Positions 61-39,432 of a DNA stretch of 64,000 nucleotides are shown piece by piece (within the stretch, counting starts at the first letter, position 1; every line of letters starts with the position of its first letter). The DNA lies in contig NZ_WQNH01000023.1 of assembly GCF_009812055.1 (NCBI RefSeq), positions 1-64,000 on the forward strand. The letters are read 5' to 3'. The DNA is from Chelativorans xinjiangensis (GTDB lineage: Bacteria > Pseudomonadota > Alphaproteobacteria > Rhizobiales > Rhizobiaceae). Under the pieces are notes generated by a model. It saw only the letters and a list, made by a program, of their open reading frames with translations, was not told where the DNA came from and searched no databases. The translations under genes and the position numbers were made by a program.

Positions 61-228
61 TCGCTCTGTCCTGCCGGACATCTCCCCCACGAGGGGGGAG
101 ATTGCTCCGGCCGCTTGCTCGGGCACCTATTCTGCGACGTAGCCGGTTGGCGAAACCCGTCATTACGGCCGATCTCCCCCCTTGTGGGGGAGATGTCCGG
201 CAGGACAGAGGGGGGCGCGAAAGGGCGT
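61..228. repeat. Composite palindromic repeat, copy 1
   Basis: Two arms at about 63-104 and 169-218 are near-exact inverted copies of each other, sharing the core TCCTGCCGGACATCTCCCCC and its reverse complement, around a unique 65-bp middle. Each arm also holds its own small hairpin (CTCCCCC...GGGGGAG). The same arrangement, with the same flank GGGGGGCG-GAAAGGGC after the right arm, recurs inside cobG at 36401-36557. Translation of one frame gives the DVRQDRGG/EMSGRTEGG-like peptides common in spurious rhizobial ORFs. This is seen directly; the element name is not known to me. Confidence 0.85.
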
Positions 229-280
229 CAACCTCTCCGATCGCACGGCACACTCTCCCTTCCAGGACTTGCACCCGCCC

Positions 281-30573: not shown

Positions 30574-30624
30574 GTTCAAATCCTCTACCCTCCACCCGAG
30601 GGCTCTTGCGGTTTCGTCTCGTCG

Positions 30625-30792
30625 TAGGCAGGTCTCCTGGCTCGCGGGTCTTCACTTGGCCCGCCTTCCCGAAGCGAAATGCTCCAGTGGCTCTTGGGCG
30701 CAAGCTCGCCGCTCACAGTTGCGGGGGCAGCCGCGGATCGGGGCAAAAAGCCCTTACCGCGTTCCCTCTTTTCGTCCCCGAAGGGAACCGAC
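30625..30792 (-). ncRNA. Cobalamin riboswitch controlling cbtBA-cobU-cobO
   Basis: On the minus strand the core runs GCTGCCCCCGCAACTGT (around 30717-30733) and ends in the B12 box AGCCAGGAGACCTGCC at 30627-30642. The 5' part has GGTTCCCTTCGGGGA and the GGTAAGGGC element. It lies about 52 bases before the cbtB ATG. High adenosylcobalamin is expected to shut down cobalt import and late assembly genes. Confidence 0.95.
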
Positions 30793-30802
30793 GACAGGGC
30801 CG

Positions 30803-30830
30803 ACCTTAAACGAAATGCGCGCCGGGACAA
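30803..30830 (-). promoter_or_regulatory. Possible promoter of the cbtB transcript
   Basis: Read on the minus strand, TTGTCC and TAAGGT are 16 bases apart immediately upstream of the riboswitch. Match to the sigma-70 pattern is only fair. Confidence 0.3.
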
Positions 30831-30847
30831 GACGAAATTATCCTGCG

Positions 30848-30876
30848 TTGACAGCATAGCCGCTGCCCCTCTAAAT
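30848..30876 (+). promoter_or_regulatory. Sigma-70-like promoter of the rightward cob operon
   Basis: TTGACA at 30848-30853 and CTAAAT at 30871-30876 are 17 bases apart and sit a few bases before the plus-strand riboswitch. CTAAAT is close to the CTATAT -10 favoured in rhizobia. Confidence 0.6.
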
Positions 30877-30882
30877 GGTCGG

Positions 30883-31060
30883 CGACGGTCTTCCATCCGC
30901 CAGGGTGGGAGCTAAGAGGGAATGCGGTGCGCCTTCGGGCAATTCCGCAGCTGTCCCCGCAACTGTAGTCGGAGAGCTCTCCGCCACACGCCACTGAAGC
31001 CGGGTGCTTCGGGAAGGCGGCGGCAGGGCGACGATCCGTAAGCCAGGAGACCTGCCGTCA
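30883..31060 (+). ncRNA. Cobalamin riboswitch controlling DUF1636-cobW-cobN operon
   Basis: Plus-strand core: GCAGCTGTCCCCGCAACTGT around 30947-30966 and the B12 box AGCCAGGAGACCTGCC at 31041-31056. The 5' portion (GGTCTTCCATCC, AGGGAATGCGGTG) fits the family. The aptamer ends about 50 bases before the proposed start of the DUF1636 gene, so control of translation or early termination is expected. Confidence 0.95.
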
Positions 31061-31111
31061 CGAAACTTAATCCTGACCGCCCGGCGGGTGACCCGGGCAA
31101 AGGACGTGACC

Positions 31112-31549
31112 TTGGCTGACGGCTTACCAGATCGGGCGGACTCCCTCTCAATAGACGCTTCCGGCGATGCCGACCGAATCAGTCCGGTCACCGTCGTCGT
31201 GTGCAGTTCCTGCCGCCGCTCCACCGACCCCGAGGAACTGCCACGCCCCGGCGCGTTGCTTGCCAGGAGCACGGTAGAAGCCGCGGAAGGCGCCGATGTG
31301 CGTGTGCGCCAGGTCGCCTGCCTCGGCAACTGCAAGCGGGGCTTGAGCGCGGCGATCCTGCGCGAGGGGTCGTGGAGCTATGTCTTCGGCGAGCTTGAGC
31401 CCCACAGCGGGCCGGATCTTATCGCCGGAGCCGAACTCTTCGCCAATTCGAGCGATGGTTTCATGCCGTTTCGGCAGCGTCCGGAATCGTTGAAGCGTGG
31501 CCTTATCGCGCGCATCCCCACAACCGACAGCCTGAAGGAGGTCCCATGA
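31112..31549 (+). CDS. DUF1636 family metal-binding protein
   Basis: About 145 residues. Two cysteine pairs, VVVCSSCRRS and VACLGNCKRGLS, resemble the thioredoxin-like ferredoxin fold of DUF1636, a family found with cobalt/cobalamin genes. The start must lie after the riboswitch; TTG at 31112 is chosen because AAAGGA lies 8 bases upstream, with GTG at 31106 as an alternative. Its stop overlaps the cobW ATG (ATGA). A role in handling cobalt or an iron-sulfur cluster is inference. Confidence 0.82.
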   Translation: MADGLPDRADSLSIDASGDADRISPVTVVVCSSCRRSTDPEELPRPGALLARSTVEAAEGADVRVRQVACLGNCKRGLSAAILREGSWSYVFGELEPHSGPDLIAGAELFANSSDGFMPFRQRPESLKRGLIARIPTTDSLKEVP

Positions 31550-32583
31550 CCGTTTCGTTCGACCGCGTTCCCTGTACCGTCGTGACGGGCTTCCTGGGAG
31601 CCGGCAAGACGACCCTTATCCGCAACGTGCTGGAGCGCGCGAACGGGAAGCGCATCGCCATCATCGTCAACGAGTTCGGCGATGTCGGCATCGACGGCGA
31701 AATTCTGAGGAACTGCGGCATCGAAGGCTGCGCGGACGATGACGTTCTGGAACTTGCAAACGGCTGCATCTGCTGCACGGTTGCCGACGATTTCGTGCCG
31801 GCGCTTGACAAGATCCTGTCGCGCGATCCCAAGGTCGATCACATCCTTATCGAGACCTCCGGCCTGGCGCTGCCCAAGCCGCTGGTGCAGGCCTTCAACT
31901 GGCCGAACGTCAAGAACCGCGTCACCGTCGACGGCGTGGTGGCGGTGGTGGACGGGCCGGCGCTGGCGGACGGACAAGTTGCCGCCGATTTGGAGGCGCT
32001 GGAGCGGCAGCGCGCCGCCGACGCGTCGCTCGACCACGACGATCCGGTCGAGGAGGTGTTCGAGGATCAGGTCGCCTGCGCCGATCTCGTCATCCTGTCC
32101 AAGGCGGATCTTCTGGATGAGCAGGCGCTTGCCCGAGCCATGGGCGCGATGGCCGGCCATCTCTCGGACGCCGTCAAGGTCGTGCATGGGATGAACGGCA
32201 ATGTCGATCCGGGCGTGCTTCTCGGTCTCGGCCTTGCCGTCGAGGACGATATCGAGAACCGCAAGACCCACCATGACGGCGTGCTCGACCACGAACATGA
32301 CGATTTCGACACCTTCGTCATCGAGCTGCCGGCGGTCGCCAACCCCGATGAACTGGCGCGCAAGGTGGCACTCGCGGCGGAAGCGGAAAATGTGTTGCGC
32401 CTGAAGGGCTTCGCGCATGTGGAAGGCAAGCCGATGCGGCTTCTCGTCCAGGCCGTCGGCCCGCGCGTGACGCATCACTACGACCGTCCCTGGAAGGCAG
32501 AAGAAGCGCCGTCGACGCGCCTCGTCGTCATTGGCCTCAAGGGCCTCGACCGGGCGGCGGTCGAGAAGCTTCTGGCGGCATGA
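31546..32583 (+). CDS. cobW: CobW, GTP-dependent metallochaperone for cobalamin synthesis
   Basis: A 345-residue COG0523 GTPase. P-loop TGFLGAGKTT near residue 14, the metal-binding NGCICCTV (CxCC) near residue 75, guanine motif SKAD, and a His/Asp-rich insertion THHDGVLDHEHDDFD near residue 240 before the C-terminal CobW_C domain. It likely delivers Co2+ to the CobN-type chelatase. Four-base overlap with the gene before it; cobN starts 4 bases after its stop. Confidence 0.95.
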   Translation: MTVSFDRVPCTVVTGFLGAGKTTLIRNVLERANGKRIAIIVNEFGDVGIDGEILRNCGIEGCADDDVLELANGCICCTVADDFVPALDKILSRDPKVDHILIETSGLALPKPLVQAFNWPNVKNRVTVDGVVAVVDGPALADGQVAADLEALERQRAADASLDHDDPVEEVFEDQVACADLVILSKADLLDEQALARAMGAMAGHLSDAVKVVHGMNGNVDPGVLLGLGLAVEDDIENRKTHHDGVLDHEHDDFDTFVIELPAVANPDELARKVALAAEAENVLRLKGFAHVEGKPMRLLVQAVGPRVTHHYDRPWKAEEAPSTRLVVIGLKGLDRAAVEKLLAA

Positions 32584-32587
32584 GACG

Positions 32588-35500
32588 ATGCATATCCTCG
32601 CCACCAGCTCCGCCTCGCTCGAGGATCTGATCGAGCCGGTAGACCTTCGCCAGACGCCGGCGGAGATGGTCGCGCTATCGTTTACCGACAGCGACCTGGC
32701 GGGGATTGCGGCGGCGTGGAAGGCTGGCCGGGAGACGTTGCCCTCGCTGCGGCTCGCCGCGCTCGGCGACCTGCGCCATCCCATGTCGGTCGATCTATGG
32801 ATCGACAGCGTGGCTTCCCATGCGAAGGTCGTGGCGGCGCGTGTCCTCGGCGGCTACGACTGGTGGCGCTACGGCTGCGACAGGCTGGCGGCGGTTGCCC
32901 GCGAGCGTGGCATTGCGCTCATTCTGCTCCCCGGCGAATGCCGCGAGGGCGATGAGCGGCTTGCCGCGCTTTCGACGGTTTGCGGGGAGACTTACGAAAC
33001 CCTGCTCGGCTTTTTCCGTGAGGGTGGGCCCGAGAACATGGCGCTTTTCGTGCGCCATATGGCGCGCCTTGCCGGCCGCGAGATTTCGGTGGGCGAGGCG
33101 CGGGCGCTGGCGCGCGCCGGATACTATGCGCCGGGCCAAGGTGTCACCGGGTTGGCGCACTACCGGTCGCTGGCGGCGTCGGGCCGGCCGGTCGTGCCGG
33201 TGCTTTTCTACCGCTCCATGCTGCTGGCCAACGATGTGGCGCCAATCGATGCGCTTGCCCGTGCGCTGGACGAGAAGGGCGTTCTGGCGGTGCCTGTCTT
33301 CGTTTCCACGCTGCGCGATTCCTCCGCCCGGCAGCTTCTGGATGAGGCGGTAGAGGCGTTGCGGCCCGCCGCTCTCATCACCACCACCGCCTTTGCGAGC
33401 GGCATCAAGGGCGCGGAAGAATGCCTCTTCGACCGGCTCGGCCTGCCGGTCTTCCAGGTTGCCGTCGCGACAACCCGGCGCGAGGCATGGAAGAGCGGCC
33501 AGCGCGGCATGGCACCCGCCGATCTCGCCATGCATGTGGTGCTGCCGGAACTCGACGGCCGCATCATGGCCGGGGCGATCTCCTTCAAGGACAGGCAGGC
33601 GCCGGACCCGGCGCTGGCGGTCAGCCTGCAGGTCAACCGGCCGGAGCCGGATCGGGTGGCACAGGTGGCCGAGCGGTTGGCCGCCTTTCTTGCGCTCCAA
33701 TCCACACCGCGCGTGGGGCGGCGCATCGCCATCGTCCTGCCGGACTATCCGGCCGCAACGGGGCGCAGCGGCTATGCGGTCGGGCTTGACGTGCCGCAAA
33801 GCGCCATCGCCATGCTGCACGACCTGAAGGCGGAAGGGTATCGGGTGGAGGATGTTCCCGAGACGCCGCGCGCCCTGATGCGCCTTCTGGAGCGCGAGAG
33901 GGCCGGCATAGCCGCCGAAGATTATGCCGCCGCCTTCGCACACCTGCCGCAGGAGGCGCGCAACGCGGTAGAGACCGCCTGGGGCGTGCCGGGGGGCGAG
34001 GATTTTTGTTTCCGCGCAGCGCGCTTCGGCAACATCACTGTGGCTTTTGCGCCCGATCGCGGCCGCGCGGCGGACCGCAGGACGGAGTATCACGATCCAG
34101 TGCTGCCGCCCGGCCATCCGCTTATCGCCTTCGGCCTGTGGTTGCGTGAGGGGCTGGGCTGCCACGCACTTGTCCATCTGGGTGCGCACGGCACGCTCGA
34201 ATGGTTGCCGGGCAAGGCCGTCGCATTGAGCGGCACTTGTTTCCCCGAGCTCGTGGCTGGTCCGCCGCCGGTGGTCTACCCCTTCATCGTCAGCAATCCG
34301 GGCGAGGCGGCACAGGCCAAGCGGCGGATCGCCGCCGTGACGCTGGGCCATCTGACGCCGCCACTGGTCGGTGCCGGCTTGAGCGATGAGCAGCAGGCGC
34401 TGGAGCGCCTGGTCGACGAATATGCGCAGGCCGACGGCCTCGACCGCCGCCGCCGCGACCGGCTGGCAAAGCTGATCGTGGAGACGGCGCAGAACACCGG
34501 TCTTGCCCGCGAGGCCGGTGTTGACGAGGGGGACGACCCGGAAGCAGCACTGCTGCGCATCGATGCGTGGCTCTGCGACCTCAAGGATTTCGCCATCAAG
34601 GATGGGCTTCACATCTACGGCCGTGCGGCCGATGGCGAAGCCGATCCACTGCGGGTCGAGAGTGCGGAACGCGAACGTACCGCCTTCATCGCTGCGCTGG
34701 ACGGCAAGCGGGTACCGCCCGGGCCGTCGGGCGCGCCGTCGCGCGGTCGGACCGATGTGCTGCCCACAGGACGCAATCTTTTCACCGCCGATCCGCGCAC
34801 GCTGCCGACGCCTACTGCCGTGGCGCTCGGCACAACCGCCGCCGATGAGATCGTGCGGGCATATCTGCAGGAGCACGGCGACTACCCGCGCGCGCTGGTG
34901 CTCGACCTATGGGGCAGCGCCAGCCTGCGCACGGGGGGCGAAGAGATTGCGCAAGGTCTGGCGCTGATGGGCTGCCGCCCGCAATGGGATGCCGCCACCG
35001 GGCGCGTGACCGGCATCGAGGTGCTGCCGCCTGCCGCCTTCGGCCGCCCACGCATCGATGTCACCTGGCGCATCTCGGGGCTGTTCCGCGACATGTTCCC
35101 GACGCAGATCGCCTTGATCGACGCCGCCGTTGCCGCCGTCGCCGCGCGCGACGAGACGCAGGACGAGAACCCGCTTGCCGCCGCGGGACGCAGCGAGGGA
35201 AGGGTGCCGGCGCGTATTTTCGGCTCCGCCCCCGGCACCTATGGCGCGGGTATCGAGGAGCGTCTCGCGCGTGGCGACTGGCAGGATCGCTCGGAACTCG
35301 GCGAGGCCTATCTCGAAGCCGCCTCTCACGTTTTCGGCGGGGCGGAAGGAGAGGGGCGGGCGGCGCCCGGTGCCTTCGCGGAACGCGTCGGCCGGGCCGA
35401 CTTGCTGGTGCACACAGGCGACGATCCAGGCCGCGATATCCTCGAAGGTTCCGCCGACGTGGCCTTCATCGGCGGCTTTTCCGCGGCACTTGCAGCACTT

Positions 35501-35929
35501 GGCGGCAAGGCGGATCTCGTCGTGCTCGATACGACGGATCCCGAACGTCCGCGCGCCCGCTCGTTGACGTCTGCCGTCACGCGCGCCGTGCGCGCCCGCG
35601 CGCTCAACCCGCGCTTCATCGAAGGCCAGTTGCGGCATGGGCCGCGGGGGGCGGCCGAGTTTGCCGAGACCGTGGATCGCCTCGTCGGCTTCGCCGAGAC
35701 GACGAACGCGATCCCCGGGGGACTGATCGAGGCGGTTCACGCCGCCTATCTGGAAGACAGGCGGGTGTGCGACTTCCTGTTTCGGGAAAATCCGGCGGCG
35801 CTCCGCGCCATTGCCGAGCGCTTTGCCGACGCACGCCGACGCGGCCTCTGGCACCCGCGCCGCAATGCGGTGGACGACGGCCTTGCGGAATTGATCGCCG
35901 AAGCACGCAAGCAGGAGGAGGTTGCATGA
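32588..35929 (+). CDS. cobN: Cobaltochelatase subunit CobN
   Basis: A 1113-residue magnesium-chelatase-H-like subunit that binds hydrogenobyrinic acid a,c-diamide for ATP-dependent cobalt insertion. Recognised by GGYDWWRYG, HLGAHGTLEWLPGKAVALS, RTDVLPTGRNLFTADPRTLP and VIDVTWRISGLFRDMFP-type segments. It is somewhat shorter than the roughly 1250-1280 residues I know for aerobic CobN. The AAA+ partners CobS and CobT (chelatase) are not in this window. ATG at 32588 follows cobW by 4 bases; the end overlaps cobG by four. Confidence 0.95.
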   Translation: MHILATSSASLEDLIEPVDLRQTPAEMVALSFTDSDLAGIAAAWKAGRETLPSLRLAALGDLRHPMSVDLWIDSVASHAKVVAARVLGGYDWWRYGCDRLAAVARERGIALILLPGECREGDERLAALSTVCGETYETLLGFFREGGPENMALFVRHMARLAGREISVGEARALARAGYYAPGQGVTGLAHYRSLAASGRPVVPVLFYRSMLLANDVAPIDALARALDEKGVLAVPVFVSTLRDSSARQLLDEAVEALRPAALITTTAFASGIKGAEECLFDRLGLPVFQVAVATTRREAWKSGQRGMAPADLAMHVVLPELDGRIMAGAISFKDRQAPDPALAVSLQVNRPEPDRVAQVAERLAAFLALQSTPRVGRRIAIVLPDYPAATGRSGYAVGLDVPQSAIAMLHDLKAEGYRVEDVPETPRALMRLLERERAGIAAEDYAAAFAHLPQEARNAVETAWGVPGGEDFCFRAARFGNITVAFAPDRGRAADRRTEYHDPVLPPGHPLIAFGLWLREGLGCHALVHLGAHGTLEWLPGKAVALSGTCFPELVAGPPPVVYPFIVSNPGEAAQAKRRIAAVTLGHLTPPLVGAGLSDEQQALERLVDEYAQADGLDRRRRDRLAKLIVETAQNTGLAREAGVDEGDDPEAALLRIDAWLCDLKDFAIKDGLHIYGRAADGEADPLRVESAERERTAFIAALDGKRVPPGPSGAPSRGRTDVLPTGRNLFTADPRTLPTPTAVALGTTAADEIVRAYLQEHGDYPRALVLDLWGSASLRTGGEEIAQGLALMGCRPQWDAATGRVTGIEVLPPAAFGRPRIDVTWRISGLFRDMFPTQIALIDAAVAAVAARDETQDENPLAAAGRSEGRVPARIFGSAPGTYGAGIEERLARGDWQDRSELGEAYLEAASHVFGGAEGEGRAAPGAFAERVGRADLLVHTGDDPGRDILEGSADVAFIGGFSAALAALGGKADLVVLDTTDPERPRARSLTSAVTRAVRARALNPRFIEGQLRHGPRGAAEFAETVDRLVGFAETTNAIPGGLIEAVHAAYLEDRRVCDFLFRENPAALRAIAERFADARRRGLWHPRRNAVDDGLAELIAEARKQEEVA

Positions 35930-37323
35930 GCCTTCGCCGTGGCGCCTGCCCCTCGCTTTCCGCGCCGATGCAGACCGGCGACGGCCTGCTCGCCCGTCTC
36001 AACCCTGTGGGAGGCCATCTTTCCGGGCGCCAACTGGCGGGGCTTGCGCGGGTGGCGGAGAGGCTCGGCAACGGTATTCTGGAGATCACCGCTCGCGGCA
36101 GCCTGCAGGTGCGGGGACTGACGGAGGAGAGCGCGGTCGCGCTTGGCGTGGAGGTGGAGGCGCTGGGGATCGAGGTGCGCTCCGGGTTGCCGGTCGATAT
36201 CAGTCCGTTAGCCGGGCTCGACGCCGGGGAGGTTGCCGATCCGCGCGGGCTGGCCCGCGAGATTTGGGAGCGCTGTGAAGCCTTGGGGCTGAGTTCGCGG
36301 CTGGGGCCGAAAGTTTCGGTGACAGTCGATGGTGGTGGTTCGCTGGGGCTTGGCGGGGTGTTTGCGGACGTGAAGCTGGAAGCCGTGGCTGGCTTTCGCG
36401 CCCTCCTCTGTCCTGCCGGACATCTCCCCCACAAGGGGGGAGGTCGGCTGTCATCAACGTCTTTCCAAATTTCGGAAGAGGGGGCCGGCGCTAGCGGCCG
36501 ATCAATCTCCCCCCTTGTGGGGGAGATGTCCGGCAGGACGGAGGGGGGCGTGAAAGGGCACACCTTCTCCGACACGAGTACCACATGGCGCCTTCGCGTC
36601 GGCAGTGCCTCTGCCACCGCTCGCGAACTGGGTCACTTCGCGCAGGCCGATGCGGCGGAAACTACCCTGCGCATCCTAAAAGCCGTTGCCGAACGCGGTG
36701 CCGATGCGCGGGCGCGCAATCTTTCAGATGCTGAACTGGCTAAGGTTACGGGCTGCGAACCGGCCTCTAGCGCCACATCTGCTGAACCCATGCGCTCGCC
36801 GGTGGGCCGGTTCGCACTTGTCGGCGGTGGGCGGGCGACGGGGATGGCGCTTGCCTACGGGCAGATCGAAAGCGGTGCCCTTCTCGCCTTGGTGCAAGCC
36901 ATCGGAGAAGAGCGGGGCGTGTGCCTCGCGCGCGGCAGGGGCCTGCTCGTCCTGGGCGTGGGAGAACATGAGGGCACGGCGCTCTTAGCCGCCGCCGAAC
37001 GCCTCGGTCTCATCGCCAAGCCCGACGATCCGCGCCTTTCCATCGCCGTTTGCGCGGGTAAACCCGCCTGTGCCTCGGCACATCTGGCCACAAGGCACCT
37101 CGCCGACAGGATCGTCGCAAGCCGGCCGGACCTGCTCGACGGCGACTACCAACTGCATCTTTCAGGCTGCGGCAAGCAGTGCGCCCGCCCCTCCCGCGCG
37201 TCGGTGACGCTGATGGGTGTCGAGGGCGGTTTTGAGATCAGCGCCGAAGGCACCGCCATCCCATCCGATCTCAAGGCCCTGCTTTGCGAGCTGGCCGAGG
37301 AACAATTCAGGCAACGCCCATGA
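35926..37323 (+). CDS. cobG: Precorrin-3B synthase CobG with in-frame repeat insertion
   Basis: A 465-residue nitrite/sulfite-reductase-like monooxygenase that makes precorrin-3B in the aerobic pathway. Seen: RRGACPSLSAPMQTGDGLLAR, GRQLAGLARVAERLGNGILE, and the cysteines of the Fe-S/siroheme site in CAGKPACASAHLATR and LSGCGKQCARPS. Residues about 159-211 are the translation of a palindromic repeat (36401-36557), between VFADVKLEAV and TWRLRVGSAS, where relatives have a few residues. The reading frame is kept, so the enzyme may still work with a surface loop. ATGA overlaps link it to cobN and cobH. Confidence 0.93.
   Translation: MSLRRGACPSLSAPMQTGDGLLARLNPVGGHLSGRQLAGLARVAERLGNGILEITARGSLQVRGLTEESAVALGVEVEALGIEVRSGLPVDISPLAGLDAGEVADPRGLAREIWERCEALGLSSRLGPKVSVTVDGGGSLGLGGVFADVKLEAVAGFRALLCPAGHLPHKGGGRLSSTSFQISEEGAGASGRSISPLVGEMSGRTEGGVKGHTFSDTSTTWRLRVGSASATARELGHFAQADAAETTLRILKAVAERGADARARNLSDAELAKVTGCEPASSATSAEPMRSPVGRFALVGGGRATGMALAYGQIESGALLALVQAIGEERGVCLARGRGLLVLGVGEHEGTALLAAAERLGLIAKPDDPRLSIAVCAGKPACASAHLATRHLADRIVASRPDLLDGDYQLHLSGCGKQCARPSRASVTLMGVEGGFEISAEGTAIPSDLKALLCELAEEQFRQRP
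36401..36557. repeat. Composite palindromic repeat, copy 2, inside cobG
   Basis: Left arm about 36401-36443 and right arm about 36501-36550 are inverted copies sharing TCCTGCCGGACATCTCCCCC, with a middle of about 57 bases. Same structure and sequence as 61-228. In the cobG frame it encodes CPAGHLPHKGGG, a short linker and SPLVGEMSGRTEGG. No stop codon and no frameshift are introduced. Confidence 0.92.
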
Positions 37324-37949
37324 CAACCGACTACATCCGCGACGGTAAGGTCATCTACGAGAAATCCTTCGCCATCATCCGGGCGGAGGCCGATCTTTCG
37401 CGCTTTTCCGAGGCGCAGGCGGATGTGGCGGTGCGCATGATCCATGCCTGCGGGCTGGTTGAGGCGGCACGCGACTTTGTGTTCTCTCCCGACTTCGTGG
37501 AGGCGGCGCGGGCAGCGCTGGCGGCAGGCAGCCCGATCTTTTGCGATGCCGAAATGGTGGCGCATGGCATCACACGGGCGCGCTTGCCGGCCGGGAACGA
37601 GGTGCTTTGTACGCTGCGTGATCCGCGTACGCCCGAGATCGCCGGGAGGATCGGCAACACGCGCTCGGCCGCTGCACTCGAACTTTGGCGGGAGCGTCTC
37701 GAAGGCGCGGTGGTCGCCATTGGCAATGCGCCGACGGCGCTTTTCCACCTGCTCGACATGCTCGAAGCGGGGGCGCCGAGGCCCGCTGCGATTATCGGTA
37801 TGCCGGTCGGCTTCGTGGGCGCGGCGGAATCGAAGGAGGCGCTGGCGGCAGGCGGCCACGGTATTCCTTTCGCCATCGTTCGGGGGCGGCTCGGCGGCAG
37901 CGCCATGACGGCAGCGGCGGTGAATGCGTTGGCGAGGACGGGTATATGA
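37320..37949 (+). CDS. cobH: Precorrin-8X methylmutase
   Basis: A 209-residue mutase that moves a methyl from C-11 to C-12 to give hydrogenobyrinic acid. Typical segments: YEKSFAIIRAEADL, VRMIHACGLVEAARD, the catalytic-His region MVAHGITRARL, VAIGNAPTALFHLLDML and IGMPVGFVGAAESKEAL. ATG at 37320 overlaps the cobG stop by four bases, as does cobI with its own stop. Confidence 0.97.
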   Translation: MTTDYIRDGKVIYEKSFAIIRAEADLSRFSEAQADVAVRMIHACGLVEAARDFVFSPDFVEAARAALAAGSPIFCDAEMVAHGITRARLPAGNEVLCTLRDPRTPEIAGRIGNTRSAAALELWRERLEGAVVAIGNAPTALFHLLDMLEAGAPRPAAIIGMPVGFVGAAESKEALAAGGHGIPFAIVRGRLGGSAMTAAAVNALARTGI

Positions 37950-38671
37950 GCGGGCGGTTGATCGGCGTCGGCACCGGGCCGGGCGATCCGGAGCTTCTTA
38001 CGCTGAAGGCGGTGAAGGCACTTGGCGTGGCCGATGTGGTGGCGCATTTCGCGAAGCGGGGCAACGGCAGCAATGCGCGCGCCATCGTCGCGGCGCATAT
38101 GCGTGCGGATGTGGTCGAGCTGCCGCTGTTTTACCCGGTGACGACCGAGATTGCGAAAAGCGCACCGGCCTATGGCGAGGCCATCTCCTGCTTCTATGAG
38201 GAGGCGGCGGAAGCCGTGGAGGCGCATCTGGCGGCCGGGCGCACCGTTGCCGTCCTGAGCGAGGGCGACCCGCTGTTTTACGGCTCCTATATGCATCTGC
38301 ATGTGCGGCTGGCCGACCGCTATCCGACGGAGGTGATCGCCGGCATTACGGCGATGTCAGGCTGCTGGTCGGCCGTGGGCCTGCCCATCGTGCAGGGCGA
38401 CGATGTGCTTTCGGTGCTGCCGGGAACGCTGCCGGAAACCGAGCTTCAGCGTCGGCTCGATGATGCTGAGGCCTGCGTCATCATGAAAGTGGGGCGAAAT
38501 CTCGCAAAGATCCGCCGTGCGCTTCAGGCGACGGGCAGGCTTGGCGAGGCCATCTTCGTGGAGCGCGGCACCATGGCGGCCATGGCCACGATACGGCTTG
38601 CGGACAAGGCGGACGACGAGGCCGCCTATTTCTCCATCGTGCTGGTTCCGGGCTGGAGGGACAGGCCATGA
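37946..38671 (+). CDS. cobI: Precorrin-2 C20-methyltransferase
   Basis: A 241-residue SAM-dependent tetrapyrrole methylase: GVGTGPGDPELLTLKAVKAL at the N-terminus, VAVLSEGDPLFYGSYMHLH, AGITAMSGCWSAVGLPI and VIMKVGRN. It methylates C-20 of precorrin-2. Translation is coupled to cobH and cobJ through ATGA overlaps. Confidence 0.96.
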   Translation: MSGRLIGVGTGPGDPELLTLKAVKALGVADVVAHFAKRGNGSNARAIVAAHMRADVVELPLFYPVTTEIAKSAPAYGEAISCFYEEAAEAVEAHLAAGRTVAVLSEGDPLFYGSYMHLHVRLADRYPTEVIAGITAMSGCWSAVGLPIVQGDDVLSVLPGTLPETELQRRLDDAEACVIMKVGRNLAKIRRALQATGRLGEAIFVERGTMAAMATIRLADKADDEAAYFSIVLVPGWRDRP

Positions 38672-39432
38672 GCGGCCGGATCGTGGTGGTGGGCCTCGGC
38701 CCCGGCAGCCCGGACCAGATGACGCCGGAGGCGTGCGCCGCCCTTGCAGAGGCGAGCGACTTCTTCGGCTATGCGCCCTATCTCGACCGGCTCGAGCTTG
38801 CGCCCGGCCAGACGCGCCATGCTTCCGACAACCGGGAAGAGCTTTCGCGCGCCGGCGCGGCGCTCGAGATGGCGGCGTCCGGCCGCAGTGTGGCCGTGGT
38901 CTCCGGAGGGGATGCCGGCGTCTTCGCCATGGCCGCTGCCGTTTGCGAGGCGATCGAAGCAGGCCCTGCCGAATGGCGCGACATCGAGTTTCTCGTGGTG
39001 CCCGGCGTCACGGCCATGCTCGCCGTAGCCGCCCGCACGGGCGCTCCGCTCGGTCATGACTTCTGCGCCATGTCCCTGTCGGACAACCTGAAGCCGTGGG
39101 AGCTGATAGAGGCGCGGCTGCGGGCGGCGGCGGGAGCGGGTTTCGCGCTTGCCTTCTACAACCCCGTGAGCCGCGCGCGGCCGTGGCAGCTCGGCCGGGC
39201 GTTCGAGATTTTGCGCGAAATTCTTGCACCAGCCACGCCCGTCATCTTCGGCCGTGCCGCCGGCCGGCCCGACGAACGCATGACGGTCACGACGCTGGGT
39301 GAGGCGCGCTCCGACCAGGCGGATATGGCGACGTGCGTCATCGTGGGCTCGGCGGAGACGCGTGTCGTTGCGCGCGAGGGCCGGCCGCCGCTCGTCTATT
39401 CCCCGCGCTCGGCCGGGAGGCAGGCGAGATGA
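38668..39432 (+). CDS. cobJ: Precorrin-3B C17-methyltransferase
   Basis: A 254-residue SAM methylase that contracts the ring at C-17. Motifs: VVVGLGPGSPDQMTPEA, VVSGGDAGVFAMAAAV, VPGVTAMLAVAARTGAPLGH, DFCAMSLSDNLKPWELI and LAFYNPVSRARPWQL. Its last 37 bases overlap the end of cobK on the opposite strand. It ends the first stretch of the rightward cob operon. Confidence 0.96.
   Translation: MSGRIVVVGLGPGSPDQMTPEACAALAEASDFFGYAPYLDRLELAPGQTRHASDNREELSRAGAALEMAASGRSVAVVSGGDAGVFAMAAAVCEAIEAGPAEWRDIEFLVVPGVTAMLAVAARTGAPLGHDFCAMSLSDNLKPWELIEARLRAAAGAGFALAFYNPVSRARPWQLGRAFEILREILAPATPVIFGRAAGRPDERMTVTTLGEARSDQADMATCVIVGSAETRVVAREGRPPLVYSPRSAGRQAR

Follow-up and report, generated by a model that had tools for sequence, protein, structure and literature searches.

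The 64,000-nucleotide stretch of Chelativorans xinjiangensis DNA analysed here (the window) contains a cobG gene in which, according to a preliminary description, a palindromic repeat is inserted in frame at 36401–36557. How can such an element enter the gene for precorrin-3B synthase, and what becomes of it there? The preliminary description likened the case to the palindromic elements of Rickettsia (RPE) and proposed that CobG be aligned with its relatives, that a target duplication be looked for, that copies of the repeat be counted across the genome and that the protein be modelled.

Alignment of the cobG copy with 29 other copies and with an empty site confirmed the in-frame palindrome and revealed that the span first given is the core of an element of about 170 bp (Table 1), corresponding to about 55 added residues. 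Despite the insert, cobG is a single uninterrupted open frame of 465 codons. Folded as RNA, the element forms one hairpin of −140.9 kcal/mol (z −14.3), and none of 200 shuffled sequences was equally stable. In the predicted structure of CobG (mean pLDDT 82.6) the score falls below 50 only at residues 1–11 and 164–215. The latter stretch is the insert; it falls between the predicted strands 149–154 and 220–225, and the model indicates that it is probably a disordered loop. Matches to MIR1437, MIR1846 and mir-3173 at 36379–36567 were weak and below the gathering score, and were rejected as an Rfam assignment for the repeat; they probably reflect just G+C-rich hairpins.

Table 1. Features of the window, with position, strand and supporting evidence.
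Feature	Position	Strand	Evidence
Second copy of the repeat family, apparently intergenic	61..240	+	Repeat search, copy alignment
Cobalamin riboswitch preceding the cob genes	30869..31073	+	Rfam RF00174, 140.9 bits
cobW	31546..32583	+	TIGR02475 above cut-off
cobN	32531..35929	+	NF008973 and TIGR02257 above cut-off; start codon not settled
cobG, precorrin-3B synthase (465 aa with the insert)	35926..37323	+	TIGR02435, 295.8 bits against a cut-off of 234.8; best Foldseek match NirA (1zj8)
Palindromic repeat in frame in cobG (residues ~156-212)	36393..36562	+	Alignment with 29 other copies, empty-site alignment
Left arm of the cobG repeat	36400..36444	+	Copy alignment, RNA folding, sequence
Right arm of the cobG repeat, an inverted copy of the left arm	36505..36549	+	Copy alignment, RNA folding, sequence
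cobH, overlapping the cobG stop	37320..37949	+	NF006136 above cut-off
cobI	37946..38671	+	NF004647 and TIGR01467 above cut-off
cobJ	38668..39432	+	NF004648 and TIGR01466 above cut-off

To judge from its sequence, CobG with its insert looks functional. It matches TIGR02435 above the cut-off, its model matches siroheme nitrite and sulfite reductases in a Foldseek search, and outside the insert dN/dS is 0.224 between the window and C. salis, 0.343 between the window and C. alearense and 0.265 between C. salis and C. alearense. The indels beside the insert (27 nt and 3 nt) preserve the frame, and there are none inside it between the window and C. salis. The gene lies among other cob genes behind a cobalamin riboswitch, its further neighbours being a CbiE/CbiT (cobL-type) gene, cobM, cobB and cobT; cobK was not identified by a profile scan of the one frame scanned at its place. 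Two cobalamin riboswitches, at 30610–30807 and 30869–31073, stand back to back on opposite strands.

When the genome was searched with the repeat arm, allowing up to 3 mismatches, at least 100 forward and at least 90 reverse matches were obtained, against 0 and 0 with a reversed-pattern control, which excludes chance as the source of the family. We gathered at least 89 distinct copies, a sample in that 40 of 163 candidates were scored in one search. In an alignment of 30 copies, including that of cobG, many full copies finish in GGCGCC, with inverted arms (CTTCGCGCC...) inside. The family resembles a MITE in having inverted repeats at its ends and in being shorter than a few hundred base pairs, and its copy number and the fold of the cobG copy identify it as a hairpin-forming repeat family. 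The family also occurs on Sinorhizobium and Rhizobium replicons, and among the best 30 matches on plasmids, for which the gene table is incomplete, 28 had no annotated gene and 2 lay in unannotated records.

The preliminary description further held that the element at 61–228 recurs in cobG, and that it is a mobile unit whose one frame is open. The element at 61–228 is indeed a real copy of the family, although part of its left outer arm is absent, and an empty site and the copy number agree with an inserted, repeated palindromic unit. The frame open to a copy is not a single one, however. Over 89 copies, 296 of 534 frames are stop-free, a mean of 3.3 of 6 per copy. An open frame through a copy is therefore cheap, and we rejected it as proof of selection.

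In the 89 copies, 47 frames run on without a stop for 40 residues or more to each side of the repeat. Pfam profiles were used to judge these frames because a coding-potential score proved weak, being poor even for cobG after the insert; 42 of the 47 were scanned and 5 left out. The copy lies within a recognisable protein in two cases, CobG and a hydantoinase/oxoprolinase. Of the other 40 scanned frames, 31 had no Pfam match, and in 8 of the 9 that had one the domain begins after the repeat, so that the repeat is probably upstream of the gene there. The genome-wide count is at least 89 distinct copies, two of them found in frame within a recognisable protein, a figure that covers in-frame copies.

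Alignment with close relatives revealed the empty site, in the cobG of C. alearense; the cobG of C. salis carries the insert. (Apart from the start residue, the CobG of G008 is identical to that of C. salis (L061) and the CobG of G002 to that of C. alearense (L064).) Relative to C. alearense, the compared stretch of cobG is 174 bp longer in C. salis and 144 bp longer in the window, which lacks 27 and 3 nt that adjoin the insert in C. salis. Judged by its flanking sequence, the window is 93–94% identical to C. alearense and 86–88% identical to C. salis, yet it is with C. salis that the insert is common, which makes loss in C. alearense likely. On the sequences compared, the insert is best read as older than the window species, C. 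salis and C. alearense and as lost in the last, or else it entered the window species and C. salis in parallel; since it is common to C. salis, the insertion is probably not recent. The loops of the window and C. salis inserts have the same length and an identity of 0.76, and among 64 other copies in the window's own genome the highest identity is 0.68 with the loop of the window and 0.71 with that of C. salis, which supports common descent of the two inserts only moderately. The empty-site alignment displayed no clear target duplication at cobG, nor was a clear one seen at the hydantoinase gene, the other site examined for the duplication that the preliminary description proposed to look for. 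In another Chelativorans genome (G010; L034, ~2300–2420 and beyond) the CobG linker that holds the window insert is occupied, in frame, by a different palindromic repeat; this repeat has nine matches in its own genome, including its own site, and more in relatives.

In the hydantoinase/oxoprolinase gene (G000:C40:3687-7616, 1310 aa) the in-frame copy occupies residues ~250–308. The full insert is absent from all 15 other Chelativorans genomes; the linker is plain in C. alearense (G002), whose best-matching piece shows 97% identity. The repeat is therefore found in frame inside two conserved genes and is absent from some relatives. In the linkers of G013 and G006 (L191, L201) we found a stretch like the right arm (21/24 and 20/24 nt), as good a match as which was obtained in none of 500 shuffles. 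These remnants suggest that the linker may have been visited before, and the gene may be a second recurrent host of the repeat. In the plain linker of C. alearense (L193 and L160), 12 nt are the same as in the outer arm of the repeat, which suggests that short homology guided the insertion.

To see CobG over a wider range, we used 78 loci, namely the best 80 of 218 rows by similarity to the window protein minus two Chelativorans rows, which represent Mesorhizobium, Aminobacter, Pseudaminobacter, Aquamicrobium, Ensifer and others. The window's repeat family is present in frame in 56 of the 78, in 53 as a complete copy by a strict pattern and in 3 as a nearly complete one (L090, with masked letters, L118 and L134). 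By our reading of the linkers, a further 8 have in-frame remnants (L063, L065, L071, L073, L088, L091, L124 and L131), 2 are doubtful (L092, L101) and 12 are without the repeat. In these loci the repeat occupies a different linker from that of Chelativorans, a second one that lies between the halves of CobG. From their largely identical flanks we take the core Mesorhizobium inserts to occupy one site; we are less sure of this between genera. The C-terminal CobG motif that follows the linker is missing in none of the 80 rows, and the model of a Mesorhizobium CobG (L066) has pLDDT below 50 only at residues 1–11 and 218–281, the latter being the insert. A family-wide search gave a CobG match in 113 of 247 genomes. 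The insert had been regarded as an unusual rhizobial case; it is not a lone oddity, since CobG is host again and again across Mesorhizobium and its neighbours.

Among the 53 complete copies the loop between the arms occurs in one orientation in 28 and in the other in 25, the labels of L110, L133 and L140 being weak because the score differences are small. In L077 and L079, whose backbones differ by 12.5%, loop identity is 0.64 forward and 0.91 inverted; the corresponding values are 0.58 and 0.91 for L113/L119 and 0.67 and 0.94 for L089/L112, against a maximum of 0.67 in 400 shuffled-loop comparisons. Compared with the remaining loops taken from the M. ciceri genome (17 entries, excluding the two of CobG itself), the loops of L075, L077, L079 and L105 reach at most 0.74, a comparison made for this genome. 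The inverted match between near relatives, compared with these values, argues for in-place inversion in the M. ciceri clade. Inversion in silico about the axis of the palindrome left 44 of the 53 copies stop-free and yielded the sequence type seen in relatives, whereas about other axes only 10 or 21 of the 53 stayed open, and 14 of the 53 in a first trial with fixed 45-nt arms. Selection for keeping both orientations open was considered and rejected, since 44 of 53 is not clearly above the proportion among control copies open forwards (12 of 18 and 6 of 8).

On a tree of the 80 rows, a quick one with many weak forks, at least 19 changes of orientation are required, compared with a mean of 18.07 in 300 shuffles, 77% of which gave 19 or fewer. 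With changes as frequent as for shuffled labels, flipping would be saturated at the scale of the tree. Among 119 near pairs (backbone difference <0.16), the loops match at ≥0.8 in the same direction in 12 and inverted in 10; in the other 97 neither orientation does so, and inversion is therefore visible only where the loops are still comparable. Replacement by other copies is also likely, given near pairs with unrelated loops such as L096/L121 (backbone difference 8.3%, loop identity 0.54 and 0.62, no better than chance). Among the other copies scored in the genome of L121, the best candidate donor of its loop is 89% identical, which is suggestive only.

The arms behave differently from the rest of CobG. 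At third positions they differ by 0.084 compared with 0.376 elsewhere in the protein, and their divergence hardly tracks that of the rest (r 0.24, third positions; 1378 pairs in both cases). The triplets at the hairpin tip are exactly complementary in 35 of the 53 copies, though the tips vary; in other genomes the tip variants are mixed among the matches listed. Exchange with the rest of the genome as the whole cause of arm uniformity was rejected: when the 53 copies were ranked by how near their arms are to those in the genome of L077, the CobG of L077 itself came only 29th and that of its relative L079 28th, although L075 came 1st and L105 4th.

We consider it quite probable that a hairpin repeat was inserted in a tolerant loop of CobG and was then flipped, replaced and deleted in frame by way of its arms. 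This reading starts from what can be seen in the DNA: the insertion, its frame and empty site, the recurrence at a second CobG linker, both orientations with loops that match in close relatives, and the in-frame remnants. A non-autonomous, MITE-like hairpin repeat of Hyphomicrobiales would have entered a tolerant, probably disordered loop and would be read as ~55 extra residues; its translation and its mode of movement we infer. The insert would survive because several frames run through its arms and loop without a stop and because the CobG loop tolerates additional residues, and its effect on the enzyme is presumably close to neutral. Within the gene the repeat would stay dynamic through its inverted arms. 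Its centre could flip in place, presumably by recombination or template switching between the arms, and because such a flip leaves the length unchanged the downstream frame would be kept. The centre could also be replaced by that of another copy, presumably through exchange, and the repeat could be deleted in frame with remnants left behind.

Could the two orientations result instead from separate insertions either way, or from flips between the arms during assembly? The two arms of a copy are almost exact inverted repeats, perfect over 44 nt in 17 of the 53, and orientation is as random on the tree as shuffled labels, a pattern that assembly flips would produce as well. Even so, we regard this as unlikely. 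In the M. ciceri clade the loops of near relatives are 0.89–0.91 identical when inverted, beyond anything found among that genome's other extracted loops, which speaks against separate insertions. As to assembly, short-read assemblers often use words longer than the inverted runs in question: the longest perfect run has a median of 40 and a maximum of 58 nt, and none of the 53 reaches 77. What is more, both orientations are represented among records with NODE_ names (10 and 6), and 9 of the 53 copies would gain a stop if flipped, yet no row has lost the C-terminal motif.

The conservation of the arms bears on a different proposal, that the insert has been domesticated, with an mRNA hairpin or an extra protein loop that is useful and arms that are kept by selection. 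Third positions far better conserved than in the rest of CobG, an arm divergence that hardly follows the backbone, tips that in 35 of 53 copies are exactly complementary although they vary, and the presence of the family in CobG of many species are all consistent with it. We nevertheless judge domestication quite unlikely, since 22 of the 78 CobGs have no repeat, a remnant only or a doubtful one, and loops are inverted or wholly different between near relatives. Copies at other places in the genomes also have uniform arms, so that arm conservation in CobG could result from exchange between copies or from correction of one arm by the other, with no need for selection on the enzyme. As for a decaying cobG, or an insert that is an assembly error in one genome, the low coding score just after the insert would fit, but the same insert is found in C. 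salis, in a separate record, the frame is kept through indels at a dN/dS of 0.22–0.34, TIGR02435 is matched above the cut-off, the predicted fold is confident, and the neighbouring cob genes are intact; we hold this to be very improbable.

In Rickettsia and Wolbachia, conserved genes carry palindromic repeats in frame and are apparently not inactivated by them (PMC10969869, PMC2229807, PMC4224334), and a guanylate kinase with an RPE insert is described there as translated and active, with a changed substrate affinity (PMC2229807). The cobG repeat appears to work like RPE; the earlier suggestion of an RPE-like palindrome in an apparently working cobG finds support in the empty site, in the number of copies and in a host gene that is intact and constrained. 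The likeness meant here to RPE and the Wolbachia elements (WPE) is one of behaviour, both being short hairpin repeats in frame in conserved genes. Their hosts are Rickettsiales, whereas the present family belongs to another order of Alphaproteobacteria, and here 2 of 89 sampled copies were found in frame inside a recognisable protein, but one gene, cobG, harbours the family in many species and in two different linkers. The present loop also appears to flip and swap inside the gene, which we did not find described in the RPE texts consulted, and apparent in-place inversion within a coding gene would be the new part.

For rhizobia, dozens of intergenic RIME repeats, conserved in sequence and secondary structure, are reported (PMC2573895); palindromes such as RIME are described there as intergenic (PMC2573895, PMC2245857), and are among the repeats listed in PMC2873474. 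RIME, the Sm repeats and the AB/C motifs are described as intergenic, whereas the present family also lies inside cobG and the hydantoinase gene. The present family could conceivably be RIME1. ERIC, YPAL and Correia elements are presented as small and non-autonomous, mostly with terminal inverted repeats, and their open frames can fuse to others (PMC2229807). The present family differs in its unrelated hosts, in having no clear target duplication at the two sites examined and in arms of ~45 nt or more. In the openly accessible literature (titles and starts of abstracts) we found no report of a rhizobial CobG insert of this kind or of its inversion.

The invertible DNA segments of phase variation likewise hold sequence between inverted repeats in either orientation. 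In cobG, on the other hand, both orientations are usually open, so that the protein would change and not be switched off. It is conceivable, though doubtful, that the CobG of Mesorhizobium contains a living invertible segment, with two forms of the enzyme per population, loops of ~22–28 residues, and cobG as a docking site for the exchange of repeat centres. If this were true, the flipping segment would be a frame-neutral counterpart of phase variation. In the literature as far as it was accessible, protein-coding palindromes have been known mainly from Rickettsia and Wolbachia; here they are found in another bacterial group, in one enzyme and in dozens of species, and insertion, inversion, replacement and in-frame loss can be traced at one site. 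The system would allow tests of how repeats make new protein loops and of the speed at which inverted repeats flip in bacteria.

Copies also lie in other genes. The ninth of the scanned frames with a Pfam match, L162:1062-2318, encodes a class I tRNA-synthetase-like protein (Pfam tRNA-synt_1c) whose C-terminal tail is a truncated copy read in frame. In the M. ciceri genome we inspected 22 distinct copies and scanned ten frames; a domain precedes the repeat only in CobG, and one ABC ATPase domain is cut. In the latter case (L241) the copy lies in an ABC-transporter ATPase gene, separating the Walker A motif from the rest of the protein, the two being in different frames, apparently a gene-breaking, out-of-frame insertion that provides a natural contrast to cobG.
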